Assembly: GCA_015066955.1 (NCBI GenBank)
Contig: SVNJ01000005.1
Location: 1 to 33,917, forward strand
Direction of reading: 5' to 3'
DNA: 33,917 nucleotides
Origin: Ruminococcus sp.
Lineage (GTDB): Bacteria; Bacillota; Clostridia; Oscillospirales; Ruminococcaceae
Part shown: positions 7,323 to 32,221 of the stretch, one piece after another
How the letters are laid out: every line of letters begins with the position of its first letter
Position numbering within the stretch: the stretch's first letter is position 1
Program-made: the position numbers and the translations under genes
Notes under the pieces: model-generated
What the model saw: only the letters and a program-made list of their open reading frames with translations
What the model was told of the DNA's origin: nothing
Databases searched by the model: none

Positions 7323-7349
7323 TGTAGGGGCGACCCTTGCGGTCGCCCG
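7323..7349 (+). repeat. REP-like palindromic unit (forward orientation)
   Basis: tgtaggggcgacccttgcggtcgcccg; identical to 10686-10712. Confidence 0.8.
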
Positions 7350-26906: not shown

Positions 26907-29225
26907 TCAAGCCTTAACGGTATAGGTGCTTCCGGGAGTTGTGCTGAAAATGATTACACCGTTTTCAATACGTGAGCCTACTGTTTCGCCGTCGCAGACT
27001 ATGCTTACAACGCAGTTTGCTCTTACACGGCATTCTCCGCCGTTATCCGAAGTTATTTCTGCGGATTTAAGCTTTCCGTCAGCCCACTCAATATCAACTC
27101 CGAAGCCGCCCTTTGCACGAAGTCCCTTTACATAGCCCTCAGACCATGCTTCGGGAAGTGCGGGCAGAAGATTGATTTCTCCGCAGCAGCTCTGGAGAAG
27201 AGCCTCAGTAATTGCCGCTGTACCGCCGAAATTACCGTCAATCTGGAACGGCGGATGTGAATCAAGCATATTGGGGTTGGTGGAATGTGCAAGAAGCTTT
27301 TTGATGTTCTCGTATACCATGCGGTTATCGTAAAGACGTGCCCACATATTTGCAATCCACGCACAGCTCCAGCCTGTATGCCCGCCTCCGTGAATAAGTC
27401 TGCGGATAAGTGTTGCTCTTGCCGCATCAGCAAGCTTCGGGGTTTTATTCGGAGTAATAAGGTCGGCAGGATGAAGTGCAAAAAGCTGAGAAATATGACG
27501 GTGACCGATTTCAACCTCGTCGTAGTCCTCCGCCCACTCCTGAATCTGACCGTACTTGCCGATTTCAGGCTGAGGAAGCTTTTCAAGCTGAGCCTTAAGC
27601 TTTTTCGCAAGACTGTGGTCTGTATCAAGAATTTCCGTGCACTTAATAACGGCATTGTAGAGCACTGTGATAATCTGTGAATCCATTGAGGGACCCATGC
27701 AGAGGCAGCCCTTGACGCCCTTGTCGGTAAGATATGTATTTTCGGGTGAAACGGAAGGACATGTTACAAGCTGTCCGTTTTCGTTTTCAATAAGGTATTC
27801 CGTAAAGAATTCCGCCGCCTCTCTGAGGATATGGTACTTCTCTTCAAGGAATTCCCTGTCAAGAGTATATTCGTAATGCTCAAAAATGTGGAGCGCAAGC
27901 CACGCACCGCCCATAGGCCATATCGTAGCAGGCATCCATAAATCCTGAGGAGCTGTATCACCCCATATATCGGTATTGTGGTGGCATACAAAGCCCTTGT
28001 TTATGCCGTACATTTCCTTTGCGGTAATTCTTCCGTTTTCGCATACCCTTTCAAGCAGGTCAAAAAGCGGAAGGTGACACTCGGAAAGATTGCAGCTTTC
28101 GGCACACCAGTAATTCATCTCGGTATTGATATTAACGGTAAATCTGCTTCCCCATGCAGGCCACATATCCTGATTCCAAATACCCTGAAGATTCATAGGC
28201 TGAGTGCCCGGACGGCTTGCGGAAATCATGAGGTAGCGTCCGTAGTTGAAATAAAGCTCGATAAGCTTGTTGTCGTGGATATTTCTCACACATTCCTTAT
28301 CATCAAGCTCATTTCCCCTCAGACGTGCAATTCGCTCATCTGTAGGCATATCCGTAAGATTCGCTTCACTGTTGTCATTGAGATTAAGCTCAACTCTTTC
28401 AAAAAGCTCTCTGTAGTCGCTTGCATGACGATAGTAAAGCTCATCGTATTCGCACTGTAGTGCCATTTCAGCGTCAACCTCTGCCGATTCCTCGTAGCAC
28501 TCACTGTAGAAGCTTGTGCGTACGGAAAGCACTATCATAACCTCATCTGCATTTTTCACGGAAAGCTTTCCTCCGAGAGTACGAAGCTCGCCGCCTGATG
28601 TCTTTGCACCGACAGCCGCCGCAAAGAATATACCGTCCTTTGAGCCTGTGCCGCCTGTATAAAGGAGCATATTTTCTCCGCAGGGACGGTTATCGTCATA
28701 GTAGTCATCACGTCCGTCAATACCGCAGGAAAGGGATATGCTTCCGGGCTGTGAGGCTGAGATGTGTATAACCATAACCTCATCGGGAGCGGACACGAAA
28801 ACCTCTCTTGTGTATGTAGTTTCTCCGACAGTAAACTGTACTGTTGTCACTGCATCGGAAAGGTCAAGCACACGGGAATAATCCTTAGCCTTGCCGTCAA
28901 GCTCCATACTGATTGAAAGCTCGCCAAGAGGCATATAATGACGCATATTAGGAGTTACACCCTGAAGCTTCTCAAAAGCAATCTTTTCAGCTTCGGGAAT
29001 ACGTCCTTCTGCAAGAAGTGCACGCACCTGTGCAAGACCTTCCTTAGCATCGGGATTCACACGGTGACGCAGTCCGCCCGACCATACAGAGTCCTCGTTG
29101 AGCTTGATTACCTCGTTTGCAGTGCCGCCGAAAACCATTCCGCCGATTCTGCCGTTTCCTACGGGAAGAGCCTCGTCAAAGCTTTCCGCAGGCTTTATAT
29201 ATCTTAAAATTGTTTCGGTTTCCAT
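26907..29225 (-). CDS. GH95-like alpha-L-fucosidase/galactosidase family protein, no signal peptide
   Basis: [113 protein letters not shown]. Confidence 0.92.
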
Positions 29226-29384: not shown

Positions 29385-29625
29385 AGAATATCCTTAAAAC
29401 GTTGATGAGGAAGGCTTTTCCGCTTGCTTTTTTCAGAGAGCAGCCGTTCGGTGCGAGGCTGCAACAGCATGGAATATACAGCACACCGCCTCTGAGTATG
29501 CCCAATACGCATCGGGTGCTCCCGTTACAGAGCCAATGAGATACGGAGTATTTTCCGTGTGAATCAGGGTGGAACCACGATTTTTGTCGTCCCTTGAGCC
29601 GCTTTGCGGTTTGAGGGATTTTTTG
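29385..29625 (+). promoter_or_regulatory. T-box leader (probably Thr-specific)
   Basis: GTTGATGAGGAAG stem I start, AGAGAG, CGGTGCGAGG distal-loop-like element, T-box AGGGTGGAACCACG (29566-29579), terminator stem CCCTTGAGCCGC/GCGGTTTGAGGG plus ATTTTTTG (29591-29625). Candidate specifier ACC at 29485-29487. Confidence 0.88.
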
Positions 29626-29641
29626 TTTATGAGGGTATCTT

Positions 29642-30199
29642 ATGGAACGCATAACACGTAAGAAGCTGCGTCTTGAAAATTATGATTACAGCCGTAATGG
29701 TGCTTATTTCGTAACGGTTTGTACGATAAATAAAATGTGCTTATTCTGGGAGCCTCAGAATAAATATCAACCGATTGAATCAGATTCATCTGCTGTAGGG
29801 GCGGTCATCGGCCGCCCGAACCGAAAAATTCATCTTTCCGAATATGGAAGATATGTCAAGGAAGCCCTTAACAATATACACACGTATTATCCAACGGTAC
29901 ATGTTGACAAATACGTTATAATGCCCAATCATATTCATATTATTCTGCGAATTGATAAAGATTTTCAAAATGCAAATGAACAATATGACGGGCGGCCGAT
30001 GACCGCCCCTACAATTTCGTGGGTCATTAATCATATGAAGGGATATGTATCCAAACAAATCGGATTTTCCCTTTGGCAGCGTTCATTCAACGACCACATA
30101 ATCCGAAATCAAGCCGAATATGCCGCATATTGGCAGTACATTGAAAACAACCCCATTAATTGGGAAAACGATGAACTGTTCAGCAATGAAAAACTGTAG
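29642..30199 (+). CDS. REP-associated tyrosine transposase-like protein (Y1_Tnp / RAYT)
   Basis: RLENYDYSRNGAYFVTVCT, HUH-type motif MPNHIHIILRI, SFNDHIIRNQAEYAAYWQYIENNPINW. The ORF itself contains REP-like palindromes. Confidence 0.92.
   Translation: MERITRKKLRLENYDYSRNGAYFVTVCTINKMCLFWEPQNKYQPIESDSSAVGAVIGRPNRKIHLSEYGRYVKEALNNIHTYYPTVHVDKYVIMPNHIHIILRIDKDFQNANEQYDGRPMTAPTISWVINHMKGYVSKQIGFSLWQRSFNDHIIRNQAEYAAYWQYIENNPINWENDELFSNEKL
29794..29818 (+). repeat. REP-like unit inside RAYT ORF
   Basis: tgtaggggcggtcatcggccgcccg. Confidence 0.85.
29989..30013 (-). repeat. REP-like unit inside RAYT ORF (inverted)
   Basis: cgggcggccgatgaccgcccctaca, exact reverse complement of 29794-29818. Confidence 0.88.
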
Positions 30200-30219
30200 G
30201 GGCGGTCATCAGCCACCCA
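30195..30219 (+). repeat. REP-like unit overlapping RAYT stop codon
   Basis: tgtaggggcggtcatcagccaccca; the TAG of tgTAGggg is the RAYT stop codon (30197-30199). Confidence 0.8.
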
Positions 30220-30274
30220 CCTGCAAAACACAAATCATTAATAAATAATAACATCACATAAAGGAGTAATAACT

Positions 30275-32221
30275 ATGATTAAACTTACACTCAAAGACGG
30301 AAGCATTCGTGAAATCGAATCAGCAATGCCCGCTTCCGAAATCATCAAGGGCATCGGTATGGGACTTTACAAGGCTTCATGCTGCGTAAAGCTCAACGGC
30401 GAGGTCAAGGACCTCCGTACAGTTGTTGACAGCGACTGCGAATTCGAGGTATGCACCTTCGACAGTATCGACGGTAAGAAAACCTTCTGGCACACAGCTT
30501 CACATATTCTTGCACAGGCTGTAAAGAGACTCTACCCCAATGCTAAGCTTGCAATCGGTCCTGCTATCGATAACGGCTTCTACTATGACTTCGACCTTGA
30601 AAAGCCCTTCACTCCCGAAGAGCTTGAAAAAATCGAAGCTGAAATGAAGAAAATCGTCAAGGAGGGTCTCCCCCTTGAGCAGTTTGAGCTTTCTCCTCAG
30701 GAGGCTATTGCTAAGCTTAAGGAAATGGATGAGCCCTACAAGGTTGAGCTTTGTGAGGAGCACGCTGACAAGGGCGAGCCTATCTCATTCTACAAGCAGG
30801 GCGAATTTGTTGACCTTTGTGCAGGTCCTCACCTCATGACAACAGCTCCCGTAAAGGCATTCAAGCTTCTTTCATGTACAGGTGCTTACTGGAGAGGCTC
30901 GGAAAAGAACAAGATGCTTTCAAGAGTATACGCAACAGCTTACCCTAAGGCAGCTGACCTTGACGCTGACCTCAAGCAGCGTGAGGAAGCTAAGATGCGT
31001 GACCACAACAAGCTCGGTCGTGAGCTTGAGCTTTTCACAACAGTTGACTGTATCGGTCAGGGACTTCCTGTACTTCTTCCTAAGGGCGCAAGAGTTGTAC
31101 AGCTTCTCCAGCGCTGGATTGAGGACGAGGAGCAGAAGAGAGGCTATCTCCTTACAAAGACACCTCTTATGGCCAAGTCTGACCTTTATAAAATTTCAGG
31201 CCACTGGGACCACTACCTTGACGGTATGTTCGTTCTCGGCGACCCCACAGATGAAACTAAGGAATGCTTTGCACTCCGTCCTATGACATGTCCCTTCCAG
31301 TATCAGGTATTCCTCAACAGACAGCGTTCATACCGTGACCTTCCTATGAGACTCGGCGAGACCTCAACACTTTTCCGTAACGAAGACAGCGGCGAGATGC
31401 ACGGTCTTATCCGTGTACGTCAGTTCACAATCTCCGAAGGACACCTTATTCTCCGTCCCGAACAGCTTGAAGAAGAATTCAAGGGCTGTCTCGAGCTTGC
31501 AAAGTATGTTCTTGATACTGTAGGTATGCTTGAGGACTGTACCTTCCGCTTCTCACAGTGGGATCCTGCTAACCCGAAGAATAAGTATGAGGGTACTGCT
31601 GAACAGTGGGAGACTGCACAGGCAGCTATGGCAAAGATTCTTGACAATCTCGGAGTTGAATACGAGGTTGGTATCGATGAGGCTGCATTCTACGGTCCTA
31701 AGCTTGATATTCAGTATAAGAATGTTTACGGCAAGGAAGATACTATCGTAACTATTCAGATCGATATGCTTCTTGCTGAAAAATTCGGCATGGAGTACGT
31801 TGACGTTGACGGTTCAAAGAAGCGTCCTTACATCATTCACAGAACTTCACTCGGCTGCTACGAGAGAACACTTGCTTATCTTATTGAAAAGTATGCAGGC
31901 GCATTCCCGCTCTGGCTTGCTCCCGAACAGGTTCGTATCGTCCCTGTTGCTGACCGTCACCTTGAATACTGCAACAGCGTTCTTGCTAAGCTTGAAGCTG
32001 CAGGAATCCGTGCGACAATCGACGACAGAGCTGAAAAGGTAGGCTGGAAGATTCGCTCCGCTACAATGGATAAGCTTCCGATCATGCTTACAGTAGGCGA
32101 TAAGGAGGTTGAAGAGCAGACTGTTTCTGTACGTTCAAGACGTGAGGGCGATTTAGGCTCAATGTCTCAGGCTGACCTGCTTGTCAAGCTTATTGATGAT
32201 ATTGCCAAGAAGGTAAGATAA
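30275..32221 (+). CDS. thrS: Threonyl-tRNA synthetase
   Basis: TGS domain, HTASHILAQAVKRLYP, catalytic core RPMTCPFQYQVF, anticodon-binding C-terminus; RBS aaaggag. Confidence 0.97.
   Translation: MIKLTLKDGSIREIESAMPASEIIKGIGMGLYKASCCVKLNGEVKDLRTVVDSDCEFEVCTFDSIDGKKTFWHTASHILAQAVKRLYPNAKLAIGPAIDNGFYYDFDLEKPFTPEELEKIEAEMKKIVKEGLPLEQFELSPQEAIAKLKEMDEPYKVELCEEHADKGEPISFYKQGEFVDLCAGPHLMTTAPVKAFKLLSCTGAYWRGSEKNKMLSRVYATAYPKAADLDADLKQREEAKMRDHNKLGRELELFTTVDCIGQGLPVLLPKGARVVQLLQRWIEDEEQKRGYLLTKTPLMAKSDLYKISGHWDHYLDGMFVLGDPTDETKECFALRPMTCPFQYQVFLNRQRSYRDLPMRLGETSTLFRNEDSGEMHGLIRVRQFTISEGHLILRPEQLEEEFKGCLELAKYVLDTVGMLEDCTFRFSQWDPANPKNKYEGTAEQWETAQAAMAKILDNLGVEYEVGIDEAAFYGPKLDIQYKNVYGKEDTIVTIQIDMLLAEKFGMEYVDVDGSKKRPYIIHRTSLGCYERTLAYLIEKYAGAFPLWLAPEQVRIVPVADRHLEYCNSVLAKLEAAGIRATIDDRAEKVGWKIRSATMDKLPIMLTVGDKEVEEQTVSVRSRREGDLGSMSQADLLVKLIDDIAKKVR

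Follow-up and report, generated by a model that had tools for sequence, protein, structure and literature searches.

The window, a stretch of 33,917 nucleotides of Ruminococcus sp. DNA (contig SVNJ01000005.1), holds a RAYT gene between a T-box leader and thrS (29393-30275). Two REP units in inverted orientation lie within the reading frame of this gene, and a third lies at its end. The features of the region are the following.

26907-29225, minus strand: neighbouring 772-aa ORF (from the ORF list), which we take to resemble a glycoside hydrolase of the alpha-L-fucosidase type
29393-29597, plus strand: T-box leader upstream of the RAYT gene and thrS (Rfam RF00230, 89.8 bits, E 5.9e-20, just below the gathering score of 93)
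29642-30199, plus strand: TnpA_REP/RAYT gene for a HuH/Y1 transposase-like protein of 185 aa (ORF, NF047646, 4ER8)
29794-30061, plus strand: proposed specificity cassette, in the order REP, core, inverted REP, alphaC (trees and identity profiles)
29794-29818, plus strand: in-gene REP arm 1, GTAG tag and hairpin, in the loop between beta1 and the first helix (exact inverted repeat, hairpin, not in 4ER8)
29930-29938, plus strand: HuH motif H97-I98-H99 (invariant in an alignment of 20)
29989-30013, minus strand: in-gene REP arm 2, inverted, in the loop between the HuH strand and alphaC (exact inverted repeat, hairpin, not in 4ER8)
30014-30061, plus strand: alphaC helix, residues 125-140, equivalent of the E. 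coli REP-stem helix in the K82 region (model, 4ER8 alignment, type-linked identity profile)
30074-30106, plus strand: W145-Q146, D151, and R155, equivalents of E. coli W94/Q95, position 100, and R104 (invariance, alignment to 4ER8, literature)
30137-30139, plus strand: likely catalytic tyrosine Y166 (invariant, aligned to E. coli Y115)
30195-30219, plus strand: third REP unit, which supplies the TAG stop (92% match to the first unit over 30195-30218)
30275-32221, plus strand: next gene after the RAYT gene, thrS, for threonyl-tRNA synthetase (ORF and sequence)

The designation of the gene as a RAYT, made in the first-pass annotation, is borne out by two matches. The curated NCBIfam model NF047646 matches the protein with 55.4 bits (E 5.9e-15), under its cut-off of 80, and by this model the window RAYT is a divergent member; a match to Pfam Y1_Tnp is likewise below its cut-off. 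There is also a profile match to E. coli TnpA_REP (4ER8; E 1.1e-9), which is the best fold match of the modest AlphaFold model (pLDDT 62.6) as well. Among 20 aligned sequences, H97, H99, Y166, and N170 are invariant; the protein has the single tyrosine, with the asparagine four residues on, at ~69 residues from the HuH motif. The genome contains the dispersed GTAG-tagged REPs with which RAYTs are associated, and across the genus these genes occupy two fixed sites rather than the varied sites of a mobile IS200/IS605 insertion sequence. As a putative RAYT activity, the protein would bind and cleave single-stranded REP DNA.

The T-box is the sole RNA family found by an RNA family search of the region. 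A T-box core motif precedes the RAYT gene at 26 of the 28 thrS-site loci, and the thrS orthologues of 16 genomes are 85-96% identical. If the T-box reads threonine tRNA, expression of the RAYT would go up on threonine shortage.

REP units within the gene and their occurrence across the genus

The two inner units are exact 25-bp reverse complements separated by 170 nt, as the first-pass annotation had stated, and by our own estimate a 558-bp ORF would contain one by chance with a probability on the order of 1e-10. Both are in frame, encoding AVGAVIGRPN (arm 1) and YDGRPMTAPT (arm 2) on either side of H97-I-H99, and each folds at -8.6 kcal/mol. The diverged third unit was likewise correctly described, its TAG (30197-30199) being the stop codon of the RAYT gene; it folds at -2.9 kcal/mol, which is not better than shuffles, and is thus a decayed copy. 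It is the only downstream flanking unit among 61 genes compared, and a REP-like hexamer lies near the gene in only 5 of the 61, so the in-gene pair is usually the sole linked REP pair. (Further REP-like units lie outside the RAYT gene at positions 7323, 10686, and 25047 of the window, the first between convergent ORFs and the second near the start of a minus-strand ORF.)

Both arm segments are missing from 4ER8 in the alignment and are therefore insertions, as was supposed at the outset; they are also missing from the REP-less homologues L127, L138, and L155, which show background matches (14/22). In the AlphaFold model the segments fall in predicted loops, the first of them at low confidence. 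Since the family includes REP-less homologues, a RAYT as such can do without the REPs. Of the two findings that would have spoken against the first-pass annotation, neither was made: no homologue was seen to retain these peptides in the absence of REP DNA, and the units do occur elsewhere in the genome (below).

Of 125 genomes of the genus that were searched, 53 contained RAYTs. The better matches fall at two fixed sites, before thrS (n=28) and before gyrB (n=33), with a few elsewhere, and in 61/61 compared genes at both sites an arm pair lies in the same two loops. (The set is limited to genes with a recognisable pair, at 20 or more of 24 matching positions; left out were L054, the fragment L119 at a contig edge, and two remote genes, L114 and L115.) Altogether 14 REP types are represented, the window's own being AVIG. 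The source genome itself carries a paralogue before gyrB, the corresponding two loops of which hold an inverted pair of another sequence, GTAGGGGACGCCGCCCTCGGCGTCCC, and other genera of the family show the same design with further REP types. The excluded L054, at the thrS site, has arm 1 and lacks the arm 2 segment. Plasmids yielded four remote relatives only.

Some genes depart from this layout. The remote L115 has REP-like inverted units in the loop that follows the HuH motif and in another one ahead of the WQ motif, and lacks arm 1, so other insertion sites exist. L111 and L113 belong to a further RAYT lineage at other sites, with compensatory stem differences between the two arms. In 31 of 33 gyrB-site loci, the final two codons of the RAYT gene and its stop read TGG AGG TA(A/G) right before the gyrB ATG, the two others being RAYTs with an internal stop; given this ending, the gyrB ribosome-binding site is probably coded within the RAYT gene (for example L002, ~2050-2080).

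Preservation of the arms as DNA

Four-fold degenerate third positions distinguish the preservation of DNA from that of peptide. Between genes of the same type these positions are 98-99% alike in the arms (0.98/0.99) and 48-51% alike elsewhere; silent sites are thus fixed in the arms and saturated outside them, which argues that it is the DNA of the arms rather than their peptide that is preserved. (It should be noted that the types were named by peptide, so that within-type peptide identity is partly by construction; silent sites were not used in the naming.) Selection on the REP-coded peptides as protein loops is scarcely credible in the face of these fixed silent positions, even though a VG close to the beginning of arm 1 and a P close to its end recur across types, because the peptides differ among types and in L112 the REPs are read in another frame (RGDPCGRP / GDRKGRPY). 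Recent insertion alone was also rejected, as the arms are identical across saturated divergence. A comparison of disrupted with intact genes, considered as a sign of selection, was set aside: identical arms occur in 3/9 and 38/52, respectively (3/7 disrupted genes after L104 and L064, whose stop precedes the start codon, are dropped), and the cases are too few.

The differences between arms indicate which structure is kept. In 40 of 65 genes the two arms agree at all 24 nt, and in the remaining 25, 23 of the differing positions lie in the loop of the small hairpin, while 10 of 15 stem positions leave both small hairpins paired. Compensatory changes within one arm are found in L060, L064, L065, L111, and L113. 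Most differences therefore leave the individual small hairpins intact and disrupt the pairing between the arms, and this pattern suggests that each REP hairpin, not the pairing of the arms with one another, is the preserved object. The GTAG, which is outside the hairpin, is likewise kept nearly throughout the types, and nearly every gene has in-gene REPs of a single type. In one gyrB-site gene (L096, genome G101) the arms have the same stems with loops CCCT and AGGG, which are reverse complements, as if the tip of the hairpin had been flipped.

These results bear on an earlier suggestion, that the arms pair in the mRNA or in single-stranded DNA around the HuH region and thereby control expression of the RAYT. 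The energetic part of this suggestion stands: the 25-bp stem forms in silico, with z-scores of -8.6 (DNA, 246 nt) and -6.1 (RNA, gene), and the frequent identity of the arms agrees with it. The regulatory reading itself is not favoured and seems improbable, given that the loop and stem differences just described spare the small hairpins at the expense of the long one and that the GTAG is conserved too. Translating ribosomes, moreover, would open a long stem in coding sequence.

A more serious alternative is that the REPs are parasitic insertions tolerated in permissive loops without any role, either recent or converted from dispersed copies and carried along by the segment around them. Quentin et al. 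2018 read their in-gene REPs in a similar way (PMC6006769), and the first-pass annotation had offered it in the form of tolerated self-insertions. It accommodates the position of the segments in loops absent from 4ER8, the existence of REP-less and eroded homologues (L127, L138, L155, and L150), and the insertion of REPs in many unrelated genes (PMC3733652). We nevertheless consider it unlikely. The same two positions are occupied in every one of the 61 genes at both sites, and as stated it leaves unexplained both the REP DNA kept identical amid saturated silent sites and the joint replacement of REP type, HuH core, and alphaC (below). In genome G013, both in-gene arms have the C variant, yet 11 of the 14 dispersed copies listed have T; the arms thus keep their variant against T-rich dispersed copies, and local rewriting is not evident there.

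Exchange of the REPs together with the HuH core and alphaC

Trees were built from the inter-arm segment together with the 20 residues that follow arm 2 (alphaC), with the arms omitted, and from the 3' flank, comprising the rest of the gene and neighbouring DNA. On the cassette trees the REP type changes 5 times at the gyrB site (minimum 4) and 8 times at the thrS site (minimum 8); on the flank trees it changes 13 and 17 times, compared with shuffled means of 16.9 and 18.8. AU tests on the flank DNA, with groups named from the arms and not from the flank trees, rejected a single clade for 6/6 types tested. On a joint cassette tree the 14 types require 13 changes, the minimum, and the site label changes once, so blocks have been exchanged among orthologues at the same site and not between thrS and gyrB.

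The extent of the exchanged block can be followed in the ratio of within-type to between-type identity, which is ~1 in the N-terminus, at least ~2 over most of the core and in alphaC, and back near 1 from the GTAG-contact motif onward. W145, Q146, D151, and R155, which are invariant among the 20 aligned sequences and aligned to 4ER8, fall beyond the block, and the K82 equivalent varies between types. Individual pairs of loci show the same. L118 (genome G028) and L059 (genome G002) are 93-98% identical upstream (81% in one 60-base window), 53-71% in the block, and 95-100% from ~25-30 codons past arm 2 through the neighbouring gene. In the pairs L103/L088, L084/L087, and L081/L088, the loci are near-identical apart from the block, the 5' boundary of which is sometimes before arm 1; the ends of the exchanged blocks are not exactly at the arms. 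Two genes still carry an arm of a different type, read as the previous one, next to the present cassette: L116 has an intact AHSV-L REP just before its AHSV-E cassette, and in L103 the DGVL cassette is preceded by a NAAL REP that has decayed. (In the NAAL genes L088 and L091, a candidate DGVL relic that follows arm 1 is too short to count.)

Relic arms beside the present ones, as in L116 and L103, and the orientation of the arms, which is that of paired dispersed REPs, might suggest that the block is a REPIN-like mobile unit, GTAG ends outward, that is moved by the RAYT as cargo and not by homologous recombination. This is very improbable. The single change of site label leaves no movement between thrS and gyrB, and the exchanged stretch extends ~25-30 codons past arm 2 and in some pairs starts before arm 1.

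Taken together, these analyses show that the REPs are preserved as DNA, that their type is linked to the core and alphaC, and that repeated replacements of the block have occurred between species at two fixed chromosomal sites. The N-terminus, the neighbouring genes, and the C-terminus, which holds the GTAG-contact residues, stayed in place. In E. coli TnpA_REP (PMC8266576, PMC6006769), a helix that follows the HuH strands (K82) makes contact with the REP stem, and W94, Q95, position 100, and R104 belong to the GTAG contact. By homology to that protein, we infer that the block sets specificity.

The explanation preferred here, at a probability of roughly 0.6, is that the gene encodes a domesticated RAYT with an exchangeable specificity cassette that carries its own cognate REPs. 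The cassette would be laid out as a cognate REP, the first helix and HuH strands, an inverted cognate REP, and the alphaC helix, with the core and alphaC reading the type-specific REP stem. Homologous recombination through the conserved flanks would replace the block, and a new specificity would bring its own substrate copies; since the REPs lie within the block, a new reader would arrive with its targets. The cassette REPs could then found a new dispersed REP family, so that reader and target would stay matched; service as substrates or founders may be the reason why the in-gene REPs are preserved. In type I restriction systems, the target-recognition domains of HsdS are exchanged by recombination between conserved flanks. 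The likeness is one of way of working only; the proteins are unrelated, and here the sequence presumed to be recognised is carried inside the exchanged segment.

Dispersed REP families and related systems

The claim that the in-gene units are REPs of a dispersed family is upheld by copies elsewhere in the genome. TGTAGGGGCG occurs 54 times in the 1.88-Mb assembly compared with once for the reversed control, and the 22-nt unit (with one degenerate loop base) is found without mismatches at 3 places outside the gene; from this excess and these copies, the window unit belongs to a genome-wide REP family. The arm of the gyrB-site paralogue, GTAGGGGACGCCGCCCTCGGCGTCCC, has five exact dispersed copies in the same genome. 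REPs of both RAYTs of this genome (G000) adjoin in clusters, as at L007 (G000:C147), with C147:15733 of the gyrB type and C147:15785 of the thrS type, and at L003 (G000:C17), with C17:12512 and C17:12680.

Copies of three REP types were counted. Among genomes in which a RAYT was detected, 42/53, 47/53, and 30/53 have them, compared with 9/72, 11/72, and 8/72 of the others (Fisher p at most 5e-8), and copy numbers are higher where the RAYT belongs to the type in question (medians 14 vs 2, 34.5 vs 12, and 16.5 vs 1; one-sided p 0.012-0.019), all these tests ignoring phylogeny and assembly gaps. Many copies are present in several non-cognate genomes. The match of type between RAYT and dispersed REPs is thus a loose tendency; a strict one-to-one correspondence was rejected. 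By hand count, exact AHSV-L copies outside the gene number ~58 in G002, whose own cassette is AHSV-E, and ~38 in G028, which has an AHSV-L cassette; for AHSV-E the counts are ~5 and ~2, respectively. The thrS-site flanks of the two genomes are alike. The dispersed copies of G002 fit a recent cassette switch, and another source of AHSV-L is possible; the G002 gene, the best example of a recent switch, has an internal stop codon. It is conceivable, at somewhat short of even odds, that each cassette switch seeds a genome-wide REP family, in which case the dispersed REPs would record the earlier cassettes of a genome.

In-frame REPs in a RAYT are of a known kind: in Quentin et al. 2018, REP insertions in tnpA_REP genes are a feature of subclass 2.4, which includes RAYT group 4 of Bertels et al. 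2017, and are judged to have little impact on the protein (PMC6006769). The subclass as described there shares with the present genes a HuH/Y1 protein, GTAG REPs with a G-C-rich stem foot, in-frame REPs, and a variable segment between the HuH strand and alphaC. A REP in frame between the HuH and Y motifs, by which the subclass is described, is represented here by arm 2 (between H99 and Y166), whereas arm 1 precedes the HuH motif. The present genes differ from that description in having an inverted pair in two loops around the HuH core, in the rarity of flanking REPs (the 5 genes of 61 above, the window having one decayed downstream unit), in the shorter distance from HuH to Y (the subclass median is 88), and in the DNA-level constraint and exchange with alphaC, which do not figure in the available published description (PMC6006769). 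Among the openly searchable papers, no report was found of a pair around the HuH core, of constraint at the DNA level, or of cassette exchange with alphaC.

Other systems share parts of the design. As in REPtrons (RAYT genes with their REPs on either side) and in E. coli TnpA_REP (4ER8), a reader gene is linked to REPs and the W, Q, and R of the GTAG contact are kept, but here the linked REPs are inside the coding frame, in two segments that the E. coli protein lacks. REPINs and BIMEs also have two inverted GTAG-tagged hairpins with the tags outward; they have a short spacer and are dispersed as a unit, whereas the spacer here is ~170 nt and codes for the HuH core. REPs within other genes and REPs supplying stop codons are already known, and intragenic REPs and Rickettsia palindromic elements share with the present units the in-frame palindromic repeats and, for REPs, the TAG stops (PMC3733652). 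Here, in contrast, the repeats lie in the gene of their own presumed reader, at sites conserved throughout the genus.

The questions addressed by these genes are the origin of REP families and the way in which a RAYT and its REP remain matched as both of them change. In ~14 natural alleles, the target sequence, the reading helix, and the boundaries of exchange can be read directly, so the specificity of a RAYT is testable by simple domain swaps. The genes also present a case in which DNA is preserved as such within a coding frame, and in which the encoded protein probably recognises the sequence that is preserved.
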